From: a virus
Reading direction: 5' to 3' (one strand)
Virus record (IMG/VR): IMGVR_UViG_3300025327_000613
Coordinates: 1-21,559 of that record
Length of the DNA: 21,559 nt
Below the pieces are notes generated by a model that saw only the letters and a list, made by a program, of their open reading frames with translations, searched no databases and had not been told where the DNA came from. The position numbers and the translations under genes were made by a program. The first letter of the stretch is position 1. Every line of letters begins with the position of its first letter. Of this stretch, positions 3,608 to 18,575 are shown piece by piece.

Positions 3608-5071
3608 CTATTGCTGTGCATAAGCGTACCAAGGATTCCCGGCAGCGGCCGCGGTGTATTCGATGTGGAGCTTGGCGGCGTTTGTTGTGCTATTGTCATA
3701 GGCGTCGGCAACGCGTTCTCCAGTTCCGCTTGTATATAACCAAAGCAACGCGATGGCAATCGGATCGTAACTATCGGCGAGTTCTTGAATGATGTCGCCA
3801 ATTGTCGTAGTGCCATCGCCGACGAAGTTAGTTGATGAGTTGACCGTCCAATTGCCAAAATCTGTTCCATCACCTTCGCAGGTCGTTGTAGTTCTCGGAC
3901 GTTGTGCCGTATCAGAAATATTGGAAGTAGTGGTTGTGAATACCCCTGGTGAAACAGCATCATGAGCAAACCAGTCACCAATAAAGTCGCCATTATCGGT
4001 TGCAACAGCAAAGAACGTCAAATAGGAATTGACTGTATCTATGGTTGCGCCGCCCAAACCAGAGATACCACTAAAGCGAAAGCCAGCATGTTTCGTGCCG
4101 CCGATATTGCCCATGAATATTGCGGTGTCATCCAACACCATTCCGCCGGTTGCTACATCTTCCCAGGCATCTTCATCGCTAGCCGCTACTTGGGCATTGA
4201 TCGTCGTATCGATCTCAATGGGATAATCTGCGGCCTGAAGCCACGCAATTGGGATCCGATGTTCTACAAACAGATTGGGGCCAGTCCTGCGTAGCCTGAA
4301 CGTCCCCAGTAACTCATCCGGGTCCTGATCCTCGACTGGCGCACCGCTGGAGCGTGGAAGATTGAAGCTCCACAGCACCTCGCCCGCCCCCTGCAGCCGG
4401 AACTCCACATAAGTCTGCGTATCCCGTATGCTGTTCGGCTGGCGGGTCCACAGCACGCCGTTCACGAAAACGTCTATTCCATTCGACACCGCAAAGATGA
4501 ACTGCAGCCGCAGCACCGGATTGCCCCCGTCGAGGATGAACTGTTCCGGTGCTGGAAACCGCGAGGCCTGATCCACGATCAAGCGCTTATCCAGCCTGGC
4601 GGTCTGCGCCTGCCAGCGGATGTCCATCCCCGCTCCGAAAGCCCCTTGCCAGAACAGGACATCCTCATCCTGGACGACCGCGCTCACAGACTGCGGATTG
4701 GCGATGGCCTGGATCTGATTTAGGTCATTGGTGTATTGGAGCTGCTGGGGTTGAAAGGCGATGCTCTCTCCGCTTCCGGGGTGGACGTACTTGACGATCT
4801 GCCCGGAGGAGAAGTTGGAGAGCGCAAAGGCGTTATAGCCCGCCTGCACCATTTGGAACTGCCAGGGCGCAATGCCGGGCTGCCAGGCGGTGTCGATCTC
4901 CTGGTCTTCGGACGGCCCGAAGTGCATCGGGCCGATTCCTAGGTCCAGCATGAATCTACTAGGTTCAGTGGGATGCTGGTGCTTGATGGAGTTGCGGCGG
5001 CGTTCGATCACTGCGGCGCTAGGCCAAGTTGACTGCGCTCGATCACGGGCTTCTCGAGCAGGATGGGCCAC
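3608..5071 (-). CDS. Phage virion-like beta-sandwich protein (487 aa)
   Basis: Probable structural or adhesion protein; no family named with confidence. The first about 40 residues are basic and polar. About 45-280 is a beta-rich domain with many aromatic and Gln residues (APWQFQMVQAGYNAF, VLFWQGAFGAGMDIRWQAQT). About 290-487 looks like a second beta-sandwich or carbohydrate-binding-like module (DTTINAQVAAS, AGFRFSGISGLGGATID, AKLHIEYTAAAA). The start is a GTG at 5071, immediately after the TAG of the protease gene and with no good SD, so translational reinitiation is likely. An internal ATG at 4951 (MLDLGIGPMHF) is an alternative. Directly downstream are the paralogous appendage genes. Confidence 0.7.
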   Translation of the reverse strand: MAHPAREARDRAQSTWPSAAVIERRRNSIKHQHPTEPSRFMLDLGIGPMHFGPSEDQEIDTAWQPGIAPWQFQMVQAGYNAFALSNFSSGQIVKYVHPGSGESIAFQPQQLQYTNDLNQIQAIANPQSVSAVVQDEDVLFWQGAFGAGMDIRWQAQTARLDKRLIVDQASRFPAPEQFILDGGNPVLRLQFIFAVSNGIDVFVNGVLWTRQPNSIRDTQTYVEFRLQGAGEVLWSFNLPRSSGAPVEDQDPDELLGTFRLRRTGPNLFVEHRIPIAWLQAADYPIEIDTTINAQVAASDEDAWEDVATGGMVLDDTAIFMGNIGGTKHAGFRFSGISGLGGATIDTVNSYLTFFAVATDNGDFIGDWFAHDAVSPGVFTTTTSNISDTAQRPRTTTTCEGDGTDFGNWTVNSSTNFVGDGTTTIGDIIQELADSYDPIAIALLWLYTSGTGERVADAYDNSTTNAAKLHIEYTAAAAGNPWYAYAQQ

Positions 5072-6577
5072 CTACGGAGTCATCTTAACGTCTTGAAAAT
5101 AAGTCCCGGTCGCGGTCAACGAAAAGCCGCGCAGTTCAATCTCCACATTGATCGCCGTTAGACCACCCTTGATGTCCACATTGCACGTCAGATAAAACGG
5201 CGAACCCGAGGCCGTCCAAACAGCCCCGCCCGTGATCTTGCCGCAGACCGCGGTTCCGGGCTGGCGAGTCGGTGCCAACGTTGGGATCGGGGTCTCGGTA
5301 GGAATCGGCGTTTCGGTCGGAATGAGCGTCTCCGTTGGAGTGAGGGTTACGGTAGGCTCTAAGGTCGGAGTTGCTGTCGGGAATTCTCCGCCGAACGAGA
5401 GCGCGGCATAGGCATCGACTAAGCCGAACCCGTAGAACTTGTCCCAGCCGACTGTTCCCTTGTCGGCCGCGGTGAGCTGCAAAACTTGTCGAGCCTCGGC
5501 ATTCGTCAACGTGGATCGAAAGCTCAACAGCAAGGCTCCGGTGCCTGCCGCGTGCGGAGTAGCCATCGAAGTGCCTGACAAGGAACGATAGCCCGACGGA
5601 TCACATAAGCTACAGGAGCCGGTAGGAACACTGCTCAGGTTAGCAACCCCCGGTGCCGCCAGCTCTACTTCCGGTCCTGTCGTACTGAATGATGCTCGGT
5701 TATCAGTCGCATCCGTCGCCGCGACCGCGATCACGCTGTCATAGCGAGCGGGATAGAGCACGCCCTCGCCGCCCGAGTTCCCGGCCGCCGCAAAGATCAG
5801 CACGCCTTTGGAGTACGCGTAGTCCACCGCGTCTTTCATGACCTGGCTGAAGCCGGACCCGCCCAAGCTCATATTGATGACATCCGCTCCGTTATCGGCC
5901 GCCCAGATGTTGCCTGCTGCCACAGCCTCCCAAGTTCCGCTCCCGCCAGAATTGAGTACCTTCACGGGCTGGACTCGGCAAGCCCAGCACATCCCAGCCA
6001 CTCCGAGGCCGTTGTTCGTGTTCGCCGCCGCGATGCCGGCGACGTGCGTTCCGTGTCCGTGATCATCAAACGGATCGGGATCATTGTTCACGAAGTCGAA
6101 TCCGGCTACGCATTTGCCAGCCAAATCCTCGTGACTGCAGGCGACTCCGGTGTCGATCACGGAGATGATGATCGTATCTGATCCGGTAGACAGATCCCAA
6201 GCCTGCGGTCCTTTGATCCGAATTGGGCCGTACTGCTCCGGCCAGCGCGGGTCATTCGGGATCGTTTCCACCGCGAAGACCAAGCCAGCGACCTCGGCAT
6301 AGACTACGGGATCGGTCCCTTCCAATTGATCAATGACGGCCAGCTCCTTGCCTTCATGAACGCCAGCTACCGTCACGTCGATCTCGGGAAGTTCTGACTG
6401 ATACCAGGCTCCGAACTGCTTGAGATGCGCGTCACGCGCCTGGATCGGTAAACCGGGCTTGAATCGGACAAGGATCTGACCCGGCGCGAACTCCGGGACT
6501 GGCTGATCGGCCTGCGCAGGAAATCCGATGAAGGAAATTGCAATCAGAATGAAGAGGACGATGATCAATTTCTTCAC
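5072..6577 (-). CDS. Secreted subtilisin-like serine protease (S8 family, 501 aa)
   Basis: Subtilase with a complete catalytic set, numbering from the GTG at 6577: Asp142 (SVIDTGV), His175 (HGHGTHVAG), oxyanion Asn267 (AAAGNSGG) and Ser337 (GTSMATPHAAG). Residues 2-24 form a classical signal peptide (KKLIIVLFILIAISFIGFPAQA). A prodomain-like segment follows (PGQILVRFKPGLP). After the catalytic domain come a Pro-Thr-rich linker (about 399-440) and a roughly 60-residue beta-rich C-terminal module. Several close Cys pairs (CxxC and similar) suggest disulfides and an extracellular location. The GTG overlaps the portal stop (GTGA) with GGAGAGG 6 nt upstream; an in-frame GTG at 6592 is less likely. 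It occupies the slot where a prohead protease is usual, but S8 enzymes are not the standard maturation protease. Whether it is a virion or host-surface protease is inference. Confidence 0.93.
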   Translation of the reverse strand: MKKLIIVLFILIAISFIGFPAQADQPVPEFAPGQILVRFKPGLPIQARDAHLKQFGAWYQSELPEIDVTVAGVHEGKELAVIDQLEGTDPVVYAEVAGLVFAVETIPNDPRWPEQYGPIRIKGPQAWDLSTGSDTIIISVIDTGVACSHEDLAGKCVAGFDFVNNDPDPFDDHGHGTHVAGIAAANTNNGLGVAGMCWACRVQPVKVLNSGGSGTWEAVAAGNIWAADNGADVINMSLGGSGFSQVMKDAVDYAYSKGVLIFAAAGNSGGEGVLYPARYDSVIAVAATDATDNRASFSTTGPEVELAAPGVANLSSVPTGSCSLCDPSGYRSLSGTSMATPHAAGTGALLLSFRSTLTNAEARQVLQLTAADKGTVGWDKFYGFGLVDAYAALSFGGEFPTATPTLEPTVTLTPTETLIPTETPIPTETPIPTLAPTRQPGTAVCGKITGGAVWTASGSPFYLTCNVDIKGGLTAINVEIELRGFSLTATGTYFQDVKMTP

Positions 6578-8004
6578 GGGTACCCTCTCCACGCCTCAGC
6601 AGCTCGCATGATCTCGATTACATCGGCTGCGGTTTTGGCCGTTTCAAGCTGACCCTCAATGGACTTCTTGAGTGTAGCAGGAATGTGTTCCGTAGTAAAA
6701 GCCCGAAGTGCTTGGCCGCGTTTCATTCGGTTGATAGCAAAGCGTTCCCACTGGCGCATCTCTTCCCCCATCCCATCTTCACGGCCATTCTGCCGAGGTC
6801 CGGGCCGGGGCTGCTGGGCGAACACCGGGAACTCTCGTTGAGGCTTTTCCTTGGCGGGCTTAACCTCTAACTCTTCCGCCGCCGCCCCTGGATCCTCAAT
6901 TCCCTCCCTGACCAAAGTAGCATGTCTCTCGGCCTCAATCTGCTGGTCCTCCGCCATGACTTCCAGCTTATCCCAGCGCCACTTGAATCTCAGGCCGGGC
7001 TGGAACTCATCTAAGTATTCCGCTTCGATGACTCCGCTGAGATATTCACCCCGAGGCTTGATCGCATTGATGATCAGGGCTTTCATCTGTTCCCGAGAGG
7101 CGGCAAAGTTGGCGGCCTCCCAGGCTCCCGCAATCGCGGGGGGGACTCGAAACACCGCGCATACATCCCGGCGCACTTCTGCCAGGATCTCGGCCAGTGC
7201 CAGATCCTTGGTAGGATACCCGATGATGTTCGGTTTCATGCCGTGGGTTGTGAAGCCGGCTCGATGCTGATTCTCTTTCTTTCCGAAGGCCCGCTTCCAT
7301 GCAGCCACGATCTTATCTAAGGTGGATTCGTCAATGGATTGATCGGATGAGAACACGATCGGGGGGATCGCATAGTTCTTGAAGAAGGCCGCCGTGTACT
7401 CCGCGGCATTCACTCCAGCGTTTACGGCTGCCATTGCGACAGAAAGTTTAGAAAGTCCCCCCAGATCATTGAAGGGATGGTATTCCCGGAAATACATCAC
7501 GTCCTCCCGCGGGAATGTCCGCTCCGCGGAAGCTCTGCCAGGAAGTCTCTGAGTAAATCCCTTGATGCCCCCGCTATCCGCTTCCAGTTTGATGGTCGAG
7601 GGATTGAGCCTCATCAGGCCCTTGATCCTCTGAGTAGCTTGTCCTCGGGCCTTTAGCCAGTAGGCGACCCCGAAGATGTCCAGATCTGATTCGGTTGCCC
7701 GCATCAGATCGTTCCCATTCATCTCGGGATTGACTTCCTTCAAGGTTTGTACGGCAGGGTGGGTCGTTGGAAGCGGGCTCTTCTCATTGGTCTCGGGCAC
7801 GATTTCCCATTCGACGCCCGCAATCGCATCGGCCCGGATAGTGATGCAGGCATAAGCCCACACCGAGGCTTGATAGGCTTTGATGAGATCGGTCGTTGAG
7901 ACCCCCTCGCCCCGCTCCCAAACCTTATCCGCCTGCCAGCCTGGAAGGGTGACGATGGCTTTGAAGTCCTGCCCGTTGATCTTCCCGAGATTGATTATGC
8001 CCAT
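6574..8004 (-). CDS. Phage portal protein (HK97-type family)
   Basis: Forms the dodecameric ring at the capsid vertex through which DNA is packaged. Its 476 residues fit the family. Recognisable blocks are the N-terminal TTDLIKAYQASVWAYACITI helix region, IRADAIAGVEWEI, DIFGVAYWLKARG, LNPSTIKLEAD, DVMYFREYHPFNDLGGLS followed by an Ala-rich helix, and VRRDVCAVFRVPPAIAG, which is typical of HK97-like portals. The C-terminal 90 residues are hydrophilic and Gln/Arg-rich. It overlaps the end of the large terminase by 10 nt and hands over to the protease through a GTGA overlap, so the order TerS-TerL-portal is as in most tailed phages. Confidence 0.95.
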   Translation of the reverse strand: MGIINLGKINGQDFKAIVTLPGWQADKVWERGEGVSTTDLIKAYQASVWAYACITIRADAIAGVEWEIVPETNEKSPLPTTHPAVQTLKEVNPEMNGNDLMRATESDLDIFGVAYWLKARGQATQRIKGLMRLNPSTIKLEADSGGIKGFTQRLPGRASAERTFPREDVMYFREYHPFNDLGGLSKLSVAMAAVNAGVNAAEYTAAFFKNYAIPPIVFSSDQSIDESTLDKIVAAWKRAFGKKENQHRAGFTTHGMKPNIIGYPTKDLALAEILAEVRRDVCAVFRVPPAIAGAWEAANFAASREQMKALIINAIKPRGEYLSGVIEAEYLDEFQPGLRFKWRWDKLEVMAEDQQIEAERHATLVREGIEDPGAAAEELEVKPAKEKPQREFPVFAQQPRPGPRQNGREDGMGEEMRQWERFAINRMKRGQALRAFTTEHIPATLKKSIEGQLETAKTAADVIEIMRAAEAWRGYP

Positions 8005-12418: not shown

Positions 12419-13848
12419 TCTTGCCTCTCAAACACCTCCAGCGCAGAGTTCGGCGTCAAATTGATAATGCGCCGACTATCTGCCTCGAATGCAGTCCGCG
12501 CCATCTGATAGGCCTCAGCCGATCTTACCAAGTCCGGGGCATGCCATTTGTTCCCATCCGAGAAATACCGCGGGTCGAAGTGATTGGGATCCTCGCCCTG
12601 CGCGATCAGCTCTTGATTCGGATTCCCCTCATGAGTATAGCGATGATCTACTCCCACCAGGAGAATGGTTGAGAAGCCCATCCAGTAGGCCAATTGGAGA
12701 GCGACGAAAGAAACGGTATGCCCCTCATAAAGACCTGCTCTTGGATCGGGGAAGAACTGGGGATCGCCCAAAGACCTCACAGGAACCACGGTTGGCTGCT
12801 GGGCTACTGCCAAATTCTGCGCCAAGTAATGCTCAGAGAGAAAGAACCGCCTCACCTTCCCTTTGTAGGCTTGCAGCATCTCGCGTCCGAATTGATCTAA
12901 TACGAGCGGATTGACTGCCGCGTAATAGTAGGGCGTGAAGCCGGCCAGTCGATAGATGCGGTTTGTCCCGAAAGATGGGTACTTCTGCAGAAACTCGAGC
13001 GGGATGTCTTTCAGCGAGGGCCCATTCCCGACGATGAGTCCTGTCTCGCCCTTGTGGATGTCTTTGAGCTCCTGCCATTTCCGCTCGGCATCCTGCATGA
13101 CTGTGGGATCATTCAACCACGGTTCTGGACGTGATGTAGCCAGTTGATCAGGAACCAACTTACCCTGACGAATGAGCCAGGGCTTCTCATCGATCCACAT
13201 CACATCCTGATGAGGCGAGATCAAGCGCATGTCGCAGTAGAGCTTGATGCCGGCCTTCCGACACTTCTGGGAAAAGTCCCAATCCTCTCCGAGGAAAGTA
13301 TCCTCCCCATCCTCATAGATCATTCGGAACCAGGGATAACGAAAGCCCTTGGCTTCCAGTTCAGTAAAAACCTTCCTACGAATGCAGAGCGCGGCGGCGC
13401 CCACGATGTCCGCCTCCATCACCCCGGCAGTCCATTCGATCGGCTGGGCCAGGTCCTCCCCTTTCATCACATAGACCTGGGGATCGAATGGCTCGCCTCG
13501 TCGAAACGCCAACGCCCCGACGATGGGGAGATTATCCTCGATGAGTTTCAAGACCACATCATGGGAATGTAGGTGATCGGTATCGAGCATCGTCAGGGAG
13601 GACTCGGGATGCGTGGTGATCTCCATGAACTTCTTAGCGATCCGGTTTCGGCTTACATCCACCCGGCTATAAGGATGCCGAACCCTTCGAATCCCATGTA
13701 GCACACAGAAGGCGGCCAGATCCTCCCGACCATCCACAACCTCAGAACTGATATGGCGCTCGTTGAGAACTGCAAACCAATGAGTAGGCCCAGACCCTTC
13801 CTGCTTGACTTCAGGTTGGCGGTGCGGCCGACGCTGGCGGCGCCTCAT
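12400..13848 (-). CDS. Two-domain glycosyltransferase: GT-A domain + DUF115/GT42-like domain (482 aa)
   Basis: Fusion of two transferase-like domains. About 22-215 is GT-A-like: SSLTMLDTDHLHSHDVVLKL (83-102, DxD at Asp89/Asp91), DIVGAAALCIRR, and GEDWDFSQKCRKAGIKLYCD (187-206). About 265-482 matches the DUF115 (MptE/Maf-like) and GT42 sialyltransferase pattern: GLIVGNGPSLKDI (270-282), FGTNRIYR (293-300), EGHTVSFVALQLAYWMGFST (375-394), LLVGVDHRYTH (396-406) and INLTPNSALEVF (462-473). DUF115 proteins include motility accessory factors that load pseudaminic/legionaminic-type sugars. The start ATG overlaps the TGA of the upstream RHH regulator, so the cassette appears co-expressed with it. The acceptor and sugar are not known. 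Confidence 0.8.
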   Translation of the reverse strand: MRRRQRRPHRQPEVKQEGSGPTHWFAVLNERHISSEVVDGREDLAAFCVLHGIRRVRHPYSRVDVSRNRIAKKFMEITTHPESSLTMLDTDHLHSHDVVLKLIEDNLPIVGALAFRRGEPFDPQVYVMKGEDLAQPIEWTAGVMEADIVGAAALCIRRKVFTELEAKGFRYPWFRMIYEDGEDTFLGEDWDFSQKCRKAGIKLYCDMRLISPHQDVMWIDEKPWLIRQGKLVPDQLATSRPEPWLNDPTVMQDAERKWQELKDIHKGETGLIVGNGPSLKDIPLEFLQKYPSFGTNRIYRLAGFTPYYYAAVNPLVLDQFGREMLQAYKGKVRRFFLSEHYLAQNLAVAQQPTVVPVRSLGDPQFFPDPRAGLYEGHTVSFVALQLAYWMGFSTILLVGVDHRYTHEGNPNQELIAQGEDPNHFDPRYFSDGNKWHAPDLVRSAEAYQMARTAFEADSRRIINLTPNSALEVFERQEWQVWR

Positions 13849-14006
13849 GCCTTTTCGCGCTTGCGGTATTCCAGCTCGAAATGCGCCTTGCGAATCAGAT
13901 CCCGTAGTACCAGGGACATGCTTTCATTCCGCTGCCTGGATAGTTCGTCAAGTTTCTTACGATCTTCAGAGGATAGCCTTATGTTAAGGCGTTCTTCCTT
14001 GTTCAT
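13845..14006 (-). CDS. Ribbon-helix-helix (CopG/Arc-type) DNA-binding protein (53 aa)
   Basis: Small repressor-like protein, first gene of the leftward operon. It starts MNKEERLNIRLSSEDRKKLD: an N-terminal basic beta strand (RLNIRL), then helix 1 (SEDRKKLDELSRQRN), the S-x-S turn (ESMSLV) and helix 2 (LVLRDLIRKAHFELEY), as in CopG/Arc/MetJ folds. It would bind as dimers with paired strands in the major groove. Its ATG at 14006 has no SD but lies exactly 6 nt beyond a good -10, suggesting a leaderless message; an in-frame GTG at 14012 is an alternative. Its TGA overlaps the ATG of the transferase fusion. An 8-bp inverted repeat over its own start and the opposing promoter is a likely operator. 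Confidence 0.85.
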   Translation of the reverse strand: MNKEERLNIRLSSEDRKKLDELSRQRNESMSLVLRDLIRKAHFELEYRKREKA

Positions 14007-14065
14007 ACGCACATTTTACAGCCTTTGTAGAGCCAGTGCAAGATCAAACACTTGACTTGTGCGTA
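14006..14065. promoter_or_regulatory. 8-bp inverted repeat in the divergent control region (candidate operator)
   Basis: TACGCACA at 14006-14013 is repeated exactly in inverted orientation as TGTGCGTA at 14058-14065. The left copy covers the start codon and edge of the -10 of the RHH gene; the right copy sits in the spacer of the rightward promoter. Such placement would let one protein, most simply the RHH product, shut both promoters. That the RHH protein binds here is inference. Confidence 0.5.
14013..14041 (-). promoter_or_regulatory. Leftward promoter of the RHH/glycan operon
   Basis: Leftward -35 TTGCAC (14041-14036), 17-nt spacer, and -10 TAAAAT (14018-14013). The -10 ends 6 nt before the ATG at 14006, so the predicted start of transcription falls on the start codon. 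A second leftward TATAAT at 14083-14078 has no convincing -35 partner. Placed back to back with the rightward promoter. Confidence 0.6.
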
Positions 14066-14079
14066 CAGTATGGTACTAT
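14052..14079 (+). promoter_or_regulatory. Rightward promoter of the early-type operon
   Basis: TTGACT (14052-14057), 16-nt spacer, and TACTAT (14074-14079) preceded by TGG, giving an extended -10. Transcription would start near 14086 and reach the SD AAAGGAG at 14091-14097 and the GTG at 14104. This is the best sigma70-like promoter in the window. Confidence 0.65.
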
Positions 14080-14103
14080 TATAGGCAAGGAAAGGAGCTT
14101 CCG

Positions 14104-14298
14104 GTGACAGAACAGACGTTCGCCCCAGAGCCGCACCAACAGCTGATCGACGGCTTGAATGCCCTCATGCTGGAGGGCCAGCTCGATAAGGCCGAGGCCC
14201 TGGAGATCATAGCCTACTATAACGAGTTGCATCCACACGATAGTTGGCTGGATGGTTCCGTTCTCTGGCAGCTCCGAAAAGACTTGGGGGCGGCATGA
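14104..14298 (+). CDS. Hypothetical small acidic helical protein (64 aa)
   Basis: First gene of the rightward operon; family not recognised. The GTG start at 14104 has a near-perfect SD (AAAGGAG, 6 nt spacing). A longer frame reaching back to 14059 would start inside the promoter and is rejected. The protein is mostly helical and amphipathic (PHQQLIDGLNALMLEG, QLDKAEALEIIAYYNE), with a Trp-containing C-terminal part (SWLDGSVLWQLRKDLGAA). No membrane segment. Its stop overlaps the next start (ATGA). A first-gene position suggests an early regulator or host-takeover protein, but nothing in the sequence proves it. Confidence 0.7.
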   Translation: MTEQTFAPEPHQQLIDGLNALMLEGQLDKAEALEIIAYYNELHPHDSWLDGSVLWQLRKDLGAA

Positions 14299-14540
14299 AG
14301 ATCTTCCCCAGCCGATACCGAGATCGATGCGGAACCTGCCTGCTCCCCATTCGCAAAGGCGAACTGATCCGGCGCCTGGAGAGTCCAGCGATCATCGAAA
14401 TCGCTGAACGCTACAACTATGACAAGCTACGAACCGAGGGCGGAGGGTACCGGCGGCTGAACTATGCCCACGCCCGATGCCCGAACGACTGCCCGGTCTG
14501 CGGGCAGGCCGAGCCGCACGTGTGCCGAGAAAGCCTATAG
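14295..14540 (+). CDS. Small Cys-rich, probable zinc-binding protein (81 aa)
   Basis: Starts at ATG 14295, overlapping the upstream TGA. The N-terminal RCGTCLLPIRKGELI is a CxxC knuckle followed by the PI-x-x-GE turn common in phage zinc-ribbon proteins. The C-terminal part has ARCPNDCPVCGQAEPHVC, giving five more Cys/His candidates. Two zinc sites are therefore plausible. Between them is a Tyr/Arg-rich stretch. Such proteins usually bind nucleic acid or host polymerase, but the target cannot be read from the sequence. Confidence 0.75.
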   Translation: MKIFPSRYRDRCGTCLLPIRKGELIRRLESPAIIEIAERYNYDKLRTEGGGYRRLNYAHARCPNDCPVCGQAEPHVCRESL

Positions 14541-14555
14541 GAACAGGAGAAGACC

Positions 14556-15266
14556 ATGAGCAACCAAACAGAGATCGTGGAGGTGGAGCCGATGGCAATC
14601 GTTAAAAGCGACCGGGTGCAGCTGGGGACGATTGAACTGGAACCAGAGGAGGTAATCGCTCGAGGTGCCAAGATCGCCAAAGCCCTGGCCCAAGTCATCA
14701 AGAAACAGAGCCTCTTCGTCAGCATCCGGGGGCGAGATCATGTCCGGGTTGAGGGATGGACGACGCTGGGCGCAATGGTCGGCATTGGCCCGCGTACCGT
14801 GAGCGTGACAGAGATCGAACCCGGGATCTTCGAGGCCAGAGTCGAACTCATTCGAATGTCGGACGGAATGATCATCGGCGGCGGGATCGCCGAGTGCGGA
14901 TCCCCGGACGAGACGAACCGGGATGGCCTGTCCGTATGGGCTGATCGGCCTCGATACGCCCGAAAATCTATGGCGATCACCCGAGCCACCGGTAAGGCAT
15001 TCCGACTCTCGCTCTCTTGGATCATGCAGCTCGCGGGGTTCGATCCCACGCCCGCCGAGGAAATCCCCCATGAGGAGGCCAGTCCTACGATCCCCAAGAA
15101 GGATCCTCTAGTACGCGAAGATTGGACATCGATGTTCTGGCAGCTCGCCAATCAATACGAGCTCGACAAAGAGCAGGCGGCGGAAGTGCTGCGCAATCAC
15201 GACAACAACTTCCACCACGCGTATGAGACCCTCAAGGCCTCGCTTGAGCCAGAGCCGCCGCAATGA
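14556..15266 (+). CDS. Conserved phage protein, candidate ssDNA-annealing/recombination protein (236 aa)
   Basis: Largest gene of the early cluster. The core, about 35-170, contains SLFVSIRGRDHVRVEGWTTL, an alternating beta region (ARVELIRMSDGMIIGGG, then AECGSP), and RPRYARKSMAITRATGKAFR followed by LSLSWIMQLAGFDPTPAEE. The A-x-TRA-x-GKA-x-R pattern recalls the TRA-GRAL helix of Erf/Rad52-like single-strand annealing proteins. The similarity is of pattern only, so the call is tentative. About 187-236 is a separate small helical domain (YELDKEQAAEVLRNHDNNFH and AYETL) that looks like a UBA-type three-helix bundle. AGGAG is found 6 nt before the ATG; the stop overlaps the next start. Confidence 0.6.
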   Translation: MSNQTEIVEVEPMAIVKSDRVQLGTIELEPEEVIARGAKIAKALAQVIKKQSLFVSIRGRDHVRVEGWTTLGAMVGIGPRTVSVTEIEPGIFEARVELIRMSDGMIIGGGIAECGSPDETNRDGLSVWADRPRYARKSMAITRATGKAFRLSLSWIMQLAGFDPTPAEEIPHEEASPTIPKKDPLVREDWTSMFWQLANQYELDKEQAAEVLRNHDNNFHHAYETLKASLEPEPPQ

Positions 15267-15367
15267 AAAGAAAATGGCCTGAGATTCTAATGTTGATCAG
15301 TGTCGGATTAGCCTTGTTGTTTGGGGGATTGGTATTGGCTTTTTCGTTCGCGGGATGGTGGCAATGA
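15263..15367 (+). CDS. Tiny single-span membrane protein (34 aa)
   Basis: A short frame bounded on both sides by ATGA overlaps: its ATG lies in the upstream stop, and its stop contains the next ATG. It codes MKRKWPEILMLISVGLALLF then GGLVLAFSFAGWWQ: a positively charged N-terminus, a hydrophobic stretch of about 24 residues and an aromatic end, a clear transmembrane helix with N-in orientation by the positive-inside rule. The double overlap makes it a credible gene despite its size. The role is unknown; small single-span phage proteins can act in superinfection exclusion, lysis timing or membrane takeover. Confidence 0.7.
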   Translation: MKRKWPEILMLISVGLALLFGGLVLAFSFAGWWQ

Positions 15368-15627
15368 CTACGCCAATCCTCAAAGTCATCCACGCGAAAG
15401 AGATCCTGGCCGACCCATTCCGGGACCAGAAGGAACTGACGCCCCGCGAGCGAGAGATCGCCCAGCTCGCGGCTCGGGGCTGGAGCATCACCGAGATCGG
15501 GCAGGAGCTGGAGATCGTGCCGCATACGGTGGCCGTGTTTCTGAACCGCATCCGGCTGAAGATCGGAATCAACCGGCACGGCCTGACGCGGCAGATGATC
15601 GAACGATTGGACCGCGCGCTTGAGTAG
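15364..15627 (+). CDS. LuxR/GerE-type HTH transcriptional regulator (87 aa)
   Basis: Consists almost only of a LuxR_C-like DNA-binding domain. KELTPREREIAQLAARGWSI (about 23-42) opens with the TPRE-x-E-x-x-LAA signature. TEIGQELEIVPHTVAVFLNR supplies the helix-turn-helix, and IRLKIGINRHGLTRQMI ends the domain, with K-x-G where classical members have KLG. No receiver or ligand domain precedes it, so DNA binding is probably not signal-controlled. I chose ATG 15364 (ATGA overlap) over an in-frame ATG three codons earlier. The following 135 bases are non-coding, so this gene may close the first part of the operon. Confidence 0.88.
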   Translation: MTTPILKVIHAKEILADPFRDQKELTPREREIAQLAARGWSITEIGQELEIVPHTVAVFLNRIRLKIGINRHGLTRQMIERLDRALE

Positions 15628-15762
15628 CTATGCTATGATGTCCTCGGCATCGGGTCCCTTAGCGGCCCATGTCCACAAGTCGGTACGTCCCGCCCCTGGC
15701 CCCTCGAAGTCGGAAGCTCCGAATAGGCTCGGGGCGGGTCGCGTCTTAGGGAGCCAACTCTC
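15607..15762 (+). promoter_or_regulatory. Non-coding intergenic element: promoter-like site plus nested stem-loops
   Basis: From 15628 to 15762 no gene is visible. A promoter-like site has an extended -10 TGC-TATGAT (hexamer 15634-15639); upstream TTGGAC at 15607-15612 fits better with an alternative -10 TATGCT at 15629-15634 (16 nt). Downstream, helices nest: TCCCT (15655-15659) with AGGGA (15748-15752), CCCGCCCC (15689-15696) with GGGGCGGG (15731-15738), and a small CGGA/TCCG hairpin at 15711-15721. The SD GGGAG of the next gene (15749-15753) lies in the outer helix, so the structure could control its translation. Confidence 0.5.
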
Positions 15763-15912
15763 ATGCTGTTAATCTCAATGACCATGATCCTGATAGCCCT
15801 GGACAGTGGGGTGAGATTCAGTAGCAGTCCTCTTTGGCTCGTGTGGATTGTCTGCTTCCAAATGGGAGCGCTCATCGACATCGGATTGATTCGAAAGTTC
15901 TGGCGCAAATGA
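15763..15912 (+). CDS. Small membrane protein, two predicted spans (49 aa)
   Basis: Short frame with GGGAG 9 nt upstream and an ATGA overlap with the next gene. The N-terminal MLLISMTMILIALDSG and the central SPLWLVWIVCFQMGALIDIG are hydrophobic enough for two membrane helices. The C-terminus is basic (LIRKFWRK), so both ends may face the cytoplasm or the first segment may be a re-entrant helix. It is preceded by the structured intergenic element whose outer helix covers its SD. Function not recognised. Confidence 0.65.
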   Translation: MLLISMTMILIALDSGVRFSSSPLWLVWIVCFQMGALIDIGLIRKFWRK

Positions 15913-16253
15913 CTGAGTTCACCTACACCAGTCTGGTCGGCTATAGAGAGCACATGCTATCTGGCAAAATGACCAGCCAGCGCAACCGGATCTTGACCTG
16001 CCTGTTTGAGTCCGCGGTCCCGCTCTGCCGGCGCCAGATCGCGAAGCTCACGAACATTGAGATCAATGCAGTCTGCGGGCGAGTGAATGCAATGCTGCCA
16101 GACGAAGAGCAAGATAAGCCCGGTCTGATCCACAAAGTCTACGAAGCGATTGATCCGATCACCGGGAAGCTCGTTGAGTTCTTAGAGCCGACCTGGCCGC
16201 AGCCGATACAGAAGTCCTTTGAGAACTTTCTAGCCCAAGAGGAGGGCCAATGA
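15909..16253 (+). CDS. Winged-helix-like DNA-binding protein (114 aa)
   Basis: The ATG at 15909 overlaps the previous stop (ATGA); a longer frame from 15834 would run across the small membrane gene and is rejected. Residues about 20-90 look like a winged helix: SQRNRILTCLFESAVPLCRR (helix 1 and 2), QIAKLTNIEINAVCGRVNAM (recognition helix), and a wing with LIHKVYEAIDPITGKLVEFL, where the ITGK hairpin is typical. This fold in phages is usually a small replication or transcription accessory protein. The C-terminus (QKSFENFLAQEEGQ) is polar, and its coding DNA recurs almost exactly before the gene at 16688. The stop overlaps the next ATG. Confidence 0.65.
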   Translation: MTEFTYTSLVGYREHMLSGKMTSQRNRILTCLFESAVPLCRRQIAKLTNIEINAVCGRVNAMLPDEEQDKPGLIHKVYEAIDPITGKLVEFLEPTWPQPIQKSFENFLAQEEGQ

Positions 16254-16438
16254 CTATCTATCGAGTAAAGATGGCGAATACTGAGTTGAGCGGTGAACGA
16301 AGAGAATACATCGTGCAGGCGAAGAATTTTGGCGCTGCCGAGGCCAAGGCTCTCAAACAGATGGGCAAGGATATGGCTGGCGAGCGCGGCAAGAACTATG
16401 CCTATGAGGCTGAGTTGCTTGGCCCGCTCGTGAAATAG
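16250..16438 (+). CDS. Hypothetical small protein (62 aa)
   Basis: Starts in an ATGA overlap with the winged-helix gene. The N-terminal strand (TIYRVKMANTELSGERREYI) is followed by a helix (AAEAKALKQMGKDMAGE) and a short C-terminal strand (NYAYEAELLGPLVK), giving a small alpha/beta protein. The layout resembles small phage proteins with a beta-hairpin and one helix, but I recognise no family. Confidence 0.65.
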   Translation: MTIYRVKMANTELSGERREYIVQAKNFGAAEAKALKQMGKDMAGERGKNYAYEAELLGPLVK

Positions 16439-16450
16439 GCTAGGTATCTT

Positions 16451-16675
16451 ATGCCATACAACCAGGCCGGTCTGCATGTCAAAAACAGGAACCGCGTCGC
16501 TGTCGGAGATGATGGTCTCAACCTTCATCCGATCAACATCAGCCCCGATTGCTGGTACTACGAACAAAGAGGCGGCATCGCCGTTTATTGGGAAGGTCAC
16601 GGGCTAATTGCTGTCATTCCTTGGCGTAATCTTCGGGCCAGCCTCAAACGGAAGGCGGAAGCAGAAGTCCTTTGA
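16451..16675 (+). CDS. Hypothetical small protein (74 aa)
   Basis: Probable gene without a recognised family. The central WYYEQRGGIAVYWEGHGLIA, followed by VIPWRNLRASLKRK, is a beta-meander followed by a basic helix. Similar W-Y-x-E...G-I-x-V...IPW-x-x-x-R-x-SL arrangements occur in small phage proteins. The SD is poor (AGG near 16442). It does not overlap its neighbours, unlike most of the operon. Its last codons coincide with a 24-bp sequence that also encodes the end of the winged-helix protein in another frame, so its tail may have been altered by a past duplication or deletion. Confidence 0.6.
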   Translation: MPYNQAGLHVKNRNRVAVGDDGLNLHPINISPDCWYYEQRGGIAVYWEGHGLIAVIPWRNLRASLKRKAEAEVL

Positions 16676-16687
16676 GGAGTTTCTACG

Positions 16688-16912
16688 ATGAGTGACCCTT
16701 GGCAAAGTATCAGGCACACGCTATCAGTCATGCCCGCGCAATCCCTGATTCCCGATCCGATCATGGGATTTCTGGTGGCGGAAGGCAAGAGACTTCTGGC
16801 CGACGCCGATGCGCTCCTGGCTGTAATCCGCAAGCATGACGTCGCTGTAGAGAATGGACATTATTGCGATCGCCTAGTGAATGAACTGCCGGACCATCTC
16901 CGCCCAAGATGA
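16688..16912 (+). CDS. Hypothetical small helical protein (74 aa)
   Basis: GAGGAG lies 8 nt upstream of the ATG. The protein is mostly helical (VAEGKRLLADADALLAVIRK) with a C-terminal HYCDRLVNELPDHLRPR. The single Cys and two or three His do not make an obvious metal site. No family recognised. It stands between two unlinked small genes, with 18 bases to the next start. Confidence 0.6.
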   Translation: MSDPWQSIRHTLSVMPAQSLIPDPIMGFLVAEGKRLLADADALLAVIRKHDVAVENGHYCDRLVNELPDHLRPR

Positions 16913-16930: not shown

Positions 16931-17167
16931 ATGCCTAGCGAGCCGCGTGATCTTGTGCCTGAAATCCCGATTCCCATCGGCCTCTATTCCGTCCTGTCCG
17001 TAACTGACCTGCGGATCAAGAGGGCCCGCAATCCCTGGCGGACCGTGAGGGCGATGGCCTGGGACCCAAGCGATGATGACTTCAAGCAGTTCGTGAAGAA
17101 CTTTTCAGAGGGGATGCTCCAGATGTTGGCTGGCCGAAAACAATCGAACGAAAGGAGAGCGAAATGA
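16931..17167 (+). CDS. Hypothetical small protein (78 aa)
   Basis: Strong SD (GGGAGG, 6 nt before the ATG). A Pro-rich N-terminus (PSEPRDLVPEIPIPIGL) precedes a short beta region (YSVLSVTDLRIKRAR) and an amphipathic helix (DDFKQFVKNFSEGMLQMLAG) with a basic tail. No known family recognised. The stop overlaps the next start (ATGA). Confidence 0.65.
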   Translation: MPSEPRDLVPEIPIPIGLYSVLSVTDLRIKRARNPWRTVRAMAWDPSDDDFKQFVKNFSEGMLQMLAGRKQSNERRAK

Positions 17168-17359: not shown

Positions 17360-17387
17360 TTGGCGTGTGGGAAAAGTGTAGTATGAT
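17360..17387 (+). promoter_or_regulatory. Promoter of the HTH-GIY-YIG gene
   Basis: TTGGCG (17360-17365), 16-nt spacer, and TATGAT (17382-17387). The hexamer ends 6 nt before the GTG at 17394, so the transcript would begin at the start codon and at the first base of a 13-bp inverted repeat. No SD sequence is present in front of that GTG. Confidence 0.6.
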
Positions 17388-17392
17388 GGGAC

Positions 17393-17525
17393 TGTGGGCA
17401 AGAGAAAGCGCGCAAGCCGCGCGTTCATTGATGCACACCGAGAGGGTGTGGCTGCGGAGACTTACCAAAGTCTCTTGCCCACAACCGCAGCTCACTCCCT
17501 CAGTGTGCATCAGTCGTTTAACGCG
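17393..17525 (+). other. Dense inverted-repeat / pseudoknot element overlapping the start of the GIY-YIG gene
   Basis: Exact pairings seen: TGTGGGCAAGAGA (17393-17405) with TCTCTTGCCCACA (17471-17483), 13 bp; TGATGCACAC (17429-17438) with GTGTGCATCA (17503-17512), 10 bp; CTGCGG (17452-17457) with CCGCAG (17485-17490); GAGACTT (17457-17463) with AAGTCTC (17468-17474), a 4-base loop hairpin; CGCGTT (17420-17425) with AACGCG (17520-17525); and a local CGCGC/GCGCG hairpin at 17409-17423. The 13-bp pair crosses the nested set, giving a pseudoknot, and its last four bases compete with the GAGACTT hairpin. It begins at the predicted transcription start. It could be RNA structure or paired protein-binding sites in DNA. 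Confidence 0.65.
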
Positions 17526-17879
17526 GGCGCGACATTCCAAGAGATTGCGGAATCATTTCAGATCAGCAGACAACGAGTACACCAGATACTCGGCCGTAAG
17601 CCGAAAGCAGGAATTCTCTATGTCATCCGTAATCCAGAAAACAGAAGATACAAAATTGGTGTCACAGCCAATTGGGAAAGCCGCTTTCAAACGCTTAAAT
17701 CAGAGCTGGGAATTGATCCAGAACTAATCGCTCAATATGATTCCGATGACATTTTCCGTGATGAAATCAAAGTCCACCAAGCACTCGGGGATCGGAACAT
17801 TCAAGGGGAATGGTTCGATCTCAAGACACTGGATTTTCGATTCATCTATTGGTTTTTCGAACTTAACAGACACCTTTAG
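17394..17879 (+). CDS. HTH + GIY-YIG (T5orf172/Mug113-like) nuclease-family protein (161 aa)
   Basis: Predicted DNA-binding nuclease-fold protein. About 36-67 is a helix-turn-helix (GATFQEIAESFQISRQRVHQIL). About 72-150 is a GIY-YIG superfamily domain of the T5orf172 kind: ILYVIRNPENRRYKIGVTAN (the two strand motifs, with YVI and KIG), then ESRFQTLKSELG and a C-terminal EIKVHQALGDRNIQGEWFDL that supplies the conserved His, Gly-Glu-Trp-Phe. Related proteins include phage homing-type and stress-associated enzymes, so activity is likely but not certain. The GTG start lacks an SD and lies 6 nt after a -10, so it may be leaderless. Its first about 40 codons double as the inverted-repeat element, and a structured non-coding region follows. 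A later start cannot be excluded. Confidence 0.82.
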   Translation: MGKRKRASRAFIDAHREGVAAETYQSLLPTTAAHSLSVHQSFNAGATFQEIAESFQISRQRVHQILGRKPKAGILYVIRNPENRRYKIGVTANWESRFQTLKSELGIDPELIAQYDSDDIFRDEIKVHQALGDRNIQGEWFDLKTLDFRFIYWFFELNRHL

Positions 17880-18353
17880 AGGTGGCAGCGATGCCGCCTC
17901 GCCAGCGGTGTCGCTGTTTCAAAGTAGTGAACGACTCGAAACTGCGCTTGGTCAGCGTGTTATGAACGTGGCGAAAAGAATGGGCGGCGGCGTGGAAAGC
18001 AGACACGCACACATCAGCGGTCTGGCAGGCCAACGATGTGGTCTATAGCGGCTACAAAACGGAGGACCAGTCGGCCAGGTCAAACCCGTAATGCGCCAAG
18101 CAATCCGGGTGCCGAAAGACCGACAGAGCCGGAGTAGCGCCCGGCCCGCCCATTCATCAAAGCACCCGACAACCCCAGAGTCCACAAGGAGCGGGATAGT
18201 GGGAGCGACCGGCAACACATCAGCGACACGCCCCAAGTCGGAGAGAAGAGGCCAGCGAGGTCGGATAGGGCATCCGGGACCGCTTGAGCGAAGCCTCGTG
18301 GCTCCGATAGGTGAAGATAGTCGCGCCTGCGGGCCAAGAAAAGGAAAAGGAAA
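17880..18353 (+). ncRNA. Candidate large structured non-coding RNA
   Basis: About 475 bases with no convincing protein gene; the open frames across it on both strands have arbitrary, low-complexity content. An extended -10 TGT-TATGAA (hexamer 17961-17966) could start a transcript near 17973. Helices nest cleanly: CACATC/GATGTG (18010-18015/18035-18040) enclosing GGTCT/AGGCC with a 3-base loop; GGTC/GACC (18078-18081/18118-18121) enclosing ACCCG/CGGGT; GCCGG/CCGGC (18128-18132/18141-18145); and TCGGAG/CTCCGA (18238-18243/18302-18307) enclosing GAGGC/GCCTC (18248-18252/18293-18297) and GGTCGGAT/ATCC-GG-GACC (18259-18281). GGCGTG (17989-17994) can pair with CACGCC (18227-18232) as a long-range closing helix. 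No known RNA class was identified. Confidence 0.6.
17886..17916 (+). terminator. Strong hairpin after the GIY-YIG gene, possible terminator
   Basis: CAGCGATGCCGC (17886-17897) pairs with GCGGTGTCGCTG (17905-17916): 12 bp including two G-U pairs, with a 7-nt loop, starting 6 bases after the stop codon. It is followed by only TTTC, so intrinsic termination would be weak. It may instead be the first helix of the large RNA-like region downstream or protect the mRNA 3' end. Confidence 0.5.
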
Positions 18354-18575
18354 ATGATGAAGACGGCAAAGGAAATCCATGAAGCACTCGACGGGATCCG
18401 CGACAACACGAATCCGGGATTGCTTGTTACGGCAATTCCAGCTACAGCAATTCCAGACAACAACCCACTCAGCCCGATCGCTACGATTCTCGCGGTCTTG
18501 ACGGCAATCAGCCTAATACAGGCCCGAACTTTGGCGTTGATGCTTGAGAAGATCGAAGAGGCCAACGCGAAGTAA
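18354..18575 (+). CDS. Small membrane-associated protein (73 aa)
   Basis: A purine-rich AAGGAAAAGGAAA leads directly into ATGATG (second ATG at 18357 also possible). An N-terminal amphipathic helix (KTAKEIHEALDGIRDNTNPG) is followed by VTAIPATAIP and then a hydrophobic helix (NPLSPIATILAVLTAISLIQ) ending in a charged tail (LMLEKIEEANAK). One membrane span is likely. It lies directly after the RNA-like region, whose transcript probably runs into it. Function unrecognised. Confidence 0.65.
   Translation: MMKTAKEIHEALDGIRDNTNPGLLVTAIPATAIPDNNPLSPIATILAVLTAISLIQARTLALMLEKIEEANAK

Follow-up and report, generated by a model that had tools for sequence, protein, structure and literature searches.

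To our knowledge, only a handful of large ornate RNAs are known from phages. One of them, GOLLD, is a phage-encoded large RNA whose 3′ region is conserved, whose 5′ region is less so, and whose variable linker sometimes carries tRNAs; another, ROOL, is a phage RNA of several hundred nucleotides with a complex structure and pseudoknots (PMC12286853). GOLLD and ROOL both assemble into RNA nanocages, and no function is known for either (PMC12286853).

The window examined here is the whole of a 21,559-nt stretch of viral DNA (IMG/VR record IMGVR_UViG_3300025327_000613, positions 1–21,559). Its genes are tightly packed, with neighbours overlapping by a few bases, and the 474-bp gap at 17880–18353 is indeed gene-free. 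A preliminary description had taken this gap for a large multi-helix non-coding phage RNA, ornate-like and of no known class. This core reading is supported by homologues with compensatory changes and is also backed by a flat codon-position pattern, a conserved promoter position, and the lack of a credible Rfam match. We regard it as very likely that a conserved structured RNA gene exists at this locus. It is about 410–590 bases long, and the gap is its back half. The description requires correction elsewhere: the 5′ part of the RNA was overlooked, an endonuclease-like gene splits the RNA, and neither the closing helix nor the repeat pairing is conserved. Sequence comparison establishes the RNA family, together with its predicted structure and strand, its promoter-like position, the ORF insertions, and the absence of a coding pattern.

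Relatives and extent of the element

Related phage contigs were collected via the DNA methyltransferase of the phage and then compared with the region by blastn. Contig L089 matched 17863–18328 with 82% identity; L096 matched with 94–96% identity in three blocks; and L093/L095 matched 18157–18328 with 91% identity. The matches in L090 and L091/L092 (91–98% identity) were confined to the last 44–51 nt. Homology to relatives ends sharply at 18328 in every case. Contig L043 is near-identical to the window and adds no information. The comparison covers about six lineages in all, the window and its relatives being metagenomic fragments. A BLASTN search of viral relatives followed by covariation analysis had been suggested at the outset, and it revealed both homologues and compensatory changes.

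The uninterrupted relatives carry elements of about 586 nt (L089, from 3844 to near 4429) and 414 nt (L093). The elements of L090 and L091, which keep the 5′ domain and the last 44–51 nt and have lost the middle of the RNA, may be remnants. The gap lies within a structured RNA, as had been claimed, but it holds the 3′ part only: the 5′ end of the RNA is at about 17394, well before the gap, and no conservation extends past 18328.

Searches of the region against phage records, of the L093 element against plasmids, and of a conserved pattern against bacterial genomes yielded no matches, matches attributable to chance, or the T-arm of a tRNA. Scanning for the pattern GTGGGCAAGAGAAAG gave chance matches and the near-identical contig L043. 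The near-identical contig was also the only relative found via the endonuclease and via the downstream 73-aa gene, and no new family members were obtained via the gene at 16931, other flanking genes, and further conserved patterns.

Some observations concern the surroundings of the element. Positions 13624–16691 of the window share 99.5% identity over 3 kb with L089:1–3068; beyond 16691, the identity drops abruptly to about 83% or no match is found. This pattern indicates a recent recombination breakpoint at 16691, just upstream of the RNA cassette. In contig L108, the place where relatives carry the RNA (L108:3070–3759) is occupied by other genes, one of which resembles a phage replication initiation protein. 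The DNA methyltransferase gene of L097 has, relative to the window, an in-frame insert of ~325 codons (about 158–1137), which starts with Cys and ends with HN before Ser; by eye, this insert looks like an intein. In contig L093, the gene preceding the RNA is itself directly preceded by a homing endonuclease gene with GIY-YIG, NUMOD3, and HTH domains (L093:1860–2591). Finally, the window gene at 5072–6592 on the minus strand, next to the portal gene, matched a phage protease (PHROG 3677, E 2.8e-69); both its size and its neighbour in the head module are unusual.

Promoter and 5′ pseudoknot domain

A sigma-70-type promoter, TTGGCG-16 nt-TATGAT, is located at 17360–17387 on the plus strand, and its −10 box ends 6 nt before the first helix, P1. 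The same 6-nt gap between the −10 box (a TATNNT hexamer) and P1 was present in 5/5 lineages (window, L089, L091, L090, and L093); for L090 and L093, this spacing leaves the first one or two nucleotides unpaired, or is counted from the first paired base. A good −35 box at 16–17 nt (9–11 of 12 matches) was identified in four of the five lineages, that of L093 being weak.

The 5′ domain (17394–17514, plus strand) is predicted to form an H-type pseudoknot, in which helix P1 interleaves with helix P2 and loop 1 contains a hairpin, P1.1. The 5′ strand of P1, GTGGGCAAGAGA (17394–17405), pairs with its 3′ strand, TCTCTTGCCCAC (17471–17482). P2 comprises 27 bp between 17427–17457 and 17485–17514. Hairpin P1.1 (17407–17425) is also present in L089, L091, and L093 and was not seen in L090. 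Helix lengths vary between 9 and 12 bp for P1 and between 27 and 31 bp for P2, and MFE z values of the domain range from −4.6 to −6.4 across lineages (−6.3 in the window).

The letters of P1 and P2 are almost wholly different among the window, the L089 type, L090, and L093, and both helices pair throughout. Changes on both sides were recorded at 9/9 positions of P1 and 26/27 positions of P2 in these four lineages, each helix position being counted in the individual fold of the sequence concerned, since the letters are not reliably alignable. The observed length of P1 was reached in one of 2000 shuffles for the window and in 7, 21, and 88 of 2000 for L089, L090, and L093, respectively. From 17863 on, the window and L096 share about 94% identity over the first block; upstream of this junction their 5′ domains are unlike, that of L096 belonging to the L089/L096 type. 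Given this discontinuity, the 5′ domain appears to have been exchanged at the 17863 junction.

The claim that the gap folds as a large RNA is reflected in its energy to a limited degree. The MFE of the region is modestly below that of shuffled sequences (z −2.26, 3/100; the minus strand behaves in the same way), and the main source of this value is the hairpin located just after the endonuclease stop codon, 17926–18353 alone having a z of −1.33. An MFE scan of the whole window gave 17776–17925 (z −5.0) and 17401–17550 (z −4.75) as the two top signals on the plus strand. The latter segment, which scores −6.4 on the minus strand, lies upstream of the gap. Folding energy by itself would not have made the case for an RNA.

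The 3′ part

The 3′ part (17863–18328, plus strand), with which homology in relatives ends, comprises a hairpin (P3), a variable arm, and a conserved 3′ module. P3 (17885–17917, z −3.9) is the hairpin that directly succeeds the endonuclease gene. In L093 and L091 this hairpin is formed again from different letters, and the motif GTTTCA follows it in the window, L089, L091, L093, and L096. P3 was also considered as an intrinsic terminator; this was rejected because only three Ts follow.

The variable arm (17978–18155) is closed by GAATGGGCGG/CCGCCCATTC; its counterpart is a short hairpin in L093 and contains a tRNA-like sequence in L089. The latter sequence (L089:4112–4201; TTCGTCTAGCGGCAGGAC ... 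GAGGGTTCGATTCCCTC) has D-arm- and T-arm-like portions and an odd, extended anticodon arm. It gave a tmRNA match with E 2.7e-5, which is far below the gathering score, and a short BLAST match to tRNA-Glu. ARAGORN detected no tRNA or tmRNA at default settings and a partial tRNA-like fold in L089 at relaxed settings only.

Within the arm of the window, GCGTG and CACGC form a local hairpin (17990–18008). The preliminary description had tentatively assigned this segment to a long-range closing helix (17989–17994/18227–18232), which is contradicted by the relatives. L096 has GCACG in place of GCGTG and, in step with it, CGTGC in place of the nearby CACGC (18004–18008), a double compensation; because both change together, the partner of GCGTG is local and not long-range. 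L093 is devoid of the segment. The 11-nt direct repeat ACACATCAGCG does occur twice, at 18009 and 18215, but the relatives lack the first copy, which is part of the variable arm, and only the second copy (18215) is conserved in them. The alternative pairing, or switch, envisaged on the basis of this repeat is not conserved among them.

The 3′ module (18191–18328) is nearly invariant and indel-free, and it served as the basis of covariance model R1. Its identity among relatives is 91–95%, as opposed to a 5′ domain that is unalignable by letters. The main 3′ domain, originally placed at 18238–18307, proved to be a real hairpin at 18237–18308, with two pairs changed on both sides across four relatives. 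In this hairpin, 98.9% of cells are paired, versus 25–44% with the partners slid; the shuffle control gave 21/500, a modest result obtained with four sequences only. The G-U variants in the hairpin fit the plus strand and not the minus strand. The MFE of the 3′ part alone is unexceptional (z −0.84 in L089 and −0.58 in L093).

ORFs inside the element and neighbouring genes

The ORF at 17394–17879 (plus strand) is homing-endonuclease-like, as judged from domain matches to HTH and GIY-YIG (MUG113/T5orf172), and its opening codons are shared with the 5′ domain of the RNA. The segment of about 17523–17862, which is situated between copies of TTAAC at 17518–17522 and 17863–17867, has no counterpart in L089 and L093; both have a single TTTAAC at that site and no ORF inserted. 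This comparison indicates that, in the window, the RNA gene is split in two by the homing-endonuclease-like gene. Other lineages carry other ORFs: in L096, a 109-aa ORF lies at the position corresponding to 18176/18191; in L090, an HNH ORF extends up to the conserved 3′ piece; and L091 has two ORFs inside the element.

The upstream gene ends before the promoter in the window, L089, L090, L091, and L093. The genes downstream differ between lineages, those of the window, L096, and L089 being unlike, which is consistent with an RNA not dedicated to any single gene. The RNA of the window is not closed by a terminator; in L089, L091, and L093, the next ORF extends without a stop from within the RNA across its 3′ end. 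One of the downstream genes (LGLTNPDP...; L089:4066–4758, L093:3049–3561, and L091:3946–4491) lacks a start codon at the junction, its frame continuing open backwards into the 3′ end of the RNA; the same gene in L090 has its own ATG.

Proposed role of the RNA

The explanation we prefer, and to which we would give even chances, is that the locus encodes a large, structured ("ornate") phage RNA of the stand-alone type. Transcription would start at about 17394 from the sigma-70-type promoter, and the first ~120 nt would fold as the long P1/P2 pseudoknot of the H type. This would be followed by the P3 hairpin, the lineage-specific variable arm, and the strongly conserved 3′ module ending near 18328. 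In the phage represented by the window, the GIY-YIG homing-endonuclease-like ORF would be lodged between the 5′ and 3′ domains. The RNA would be made as a separate molecule and, similarly to GOLLD and ROOL, might serve the infecting phage as a scaffold or particle. Its 5′ domain looks exchangeable, with a sequence that turns over and an architecture that is fixed.

A more far-reaching proposal is possible, if somewhat improbable: the element may represent an undescribed class of large phage RNA, defined by a swappable 5′ pseudoknot, whose sequence is exchanged entirely between close relatives and whose geometry is fixed to the transcription start, and by a near-invariant 3′ module. It would be a repeated landing site for homing-endonuclease-like genes, and selection for self-recognition would be suggested. 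Self-recognition, if true, could take the form of homotypic assembly or of incompatibility when phages co-infect. With its strong covariation, the constant position of its promoter, its naturally minimal versions (about 414 nt in L093), and its naturally swapped modules, a further class would lend itself to structural studies and to asking why phages keep large RNAs. It would also be an unusual case of homing-endonuclease-like genes lodged in an RNA gene that is no recognised intron.

Alternative explanations

Because no terminator closes the RNA and the next ORF runs open in three lineages, the main rival is a cis-acting leader. The element would then be the 5′ end of a downstream accessory-gene mRNA, acting on transcription elongation or translation as an antiterminator, or as an attenuator via P3. 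The HK022 put RNA is the model for the antiterminator form; RNAs of the put type make RNA polymerase ignore terminators in cis. A leader would begin at a promoter, as this RNA does, and would pass without a terminator into genes such as the small rightward ones located directly after it. The ORF continuing out of the 3′ end in L089, L091, and L093 and the GTTTCA shared after P3 by these three lineages, the window, and L096 agree with this reading as well. We nevertheless consider it unlikely. The downstream genes are not conserved among the window, L096, and L089, the element greatly exceeds known phage antiterminator RNAs in size, and P3 is followed by a run of only three Us. Moreover, conservation is highest at the 3′ end, a long way from the promoter.

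The RNA could also function in replication, as an origin transcript or as a primer like ColE1 RNA II; incompatibility would then be set by the variable 5′ domain of the element. Being promoter-driven, about 0.4–0.6 kb long, divergent in 5′ structure, and constant at the 3′ end, the element has the appropriate outline, and the replication-initiator-like gene of L108, which is without the RNA, is found at the corresponding place. That context may be a coincidence, however; no origin features were seen, and the block is GC-rich (about 60%). We judge this role to be very unlikely.

A self-splicing group I-like intron, or a ribozyme derived from one, with homing-endonuclease ORFs in peripheral loops, would account for the GIY-YIG and HNH ORFs inside the element and for the variable arms. 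Also, the conserved GAAGATAG near the 3′ end recalls, by eye, the J8/7-P7 element. This origin is strongly disfavoured, and in our opinion highly improbable, because the promoter abuts the first nucleotide and there is no coding exon upstream. Rfam contained no group I or II match at E≤10 (window, L089, and L093) or at the gathering score (five loci), and no P7 partner for GATAG was seen by eye. Flanking exons of one gene were not found: the upstream gene ends before the promoter in five lineages, and the downstream genes differ. The idea of a group I intron, prompted by the endonuclease, was rejected for want of both core and exons.

With regard to coding potential, codon-usage scores are negative in all six frames of the gap, the annotated frames scoring about −0.1 to +0.3. 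The gap frames that were compared with Pfam gave nothing above the curated cut-off. None of them matched a protein family, and the substitutions across homologues are not of the codon type: the variable columns are distributed 5/5/4 over codon positions, unlike those of a control gene in the same contigs, which shows a third-position excess of substitutions. A decayed or hidden gene for a basic protein, in the frame that ends at 18357, with the endonuclease gene and a single TAG as interruptions, can be dismissed as having a negligible probability: this frame is open except for the TAG at 18046–18048, remains open over the conserved block in L089, L093, and L096, and has a TGA overlapping the next ATG, but 34/46 codon differences in it are non-synonymous, the compensatory changes alter amino acids while keeping the pairs, codon usage and protein families argue against it, and the covariation of P1/P2 has no coding explanation. 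A coding frame with the TAG read through was rejected by codon usage and the substitution pattern; TAG serves as a stop in other genes of this phage.

Comparison with known RNA classes

The Infernal/Rfam check proposed in the preliminary description was run and gave no credible match. No family was detected at the gathering score in the window and five loci. At E≤10, the elements of the window, L089, and L093 again had no credible match, and GOLLD, ROOL, HEARO, group I, and group II were absent from the lists.

With HEARO and the OMEGA RNAs of IscB and IsrB, the element shares the position of a structured RNA beside a nuclease ORF (HNH in L090). It differs from them in having no Rfam match and in that the nuclease varies by lineage and is absent inside the L089 and L093 elements; the HNH ORF of L090 is short and stand-alone and was not recognised as an IscB/IsrB protein. 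Group I introns that carry homing endonuclease genes are likewise phage RNAs with peripheral GIY-YIG and HNH ORFs, but the element lacks a core match and exons and has a promoter at its first nucleotide.

As a candidate stand-alone RNA, the element is best compared with GOLLD and ROOL. Like ROOL, it is a phage RNA of several hundred nucleotides with a complex structure and pseudoknots, although it has no covariance-model match to this class and no adjoining tRNA island in the loci scanned. The features distinguishing it from GOLLD, to which there is no covariance-model match even at E≤10, are its size (about 414–586 nt versus often >800 nt in GOLLD), the long P1/P2 pseudoknot at the transcription start, and the ORFs inside. 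The two have in common the plan of a conserved 3′ and a variable 5′ region, as well as the tRNA-like piece in the variable arm of L089. The element would accordingly stand closest to GOLLD, with ROOL as the other comparable class, and the plan it shares with GOLLD is a similarity of layout rather than proof of kinship.
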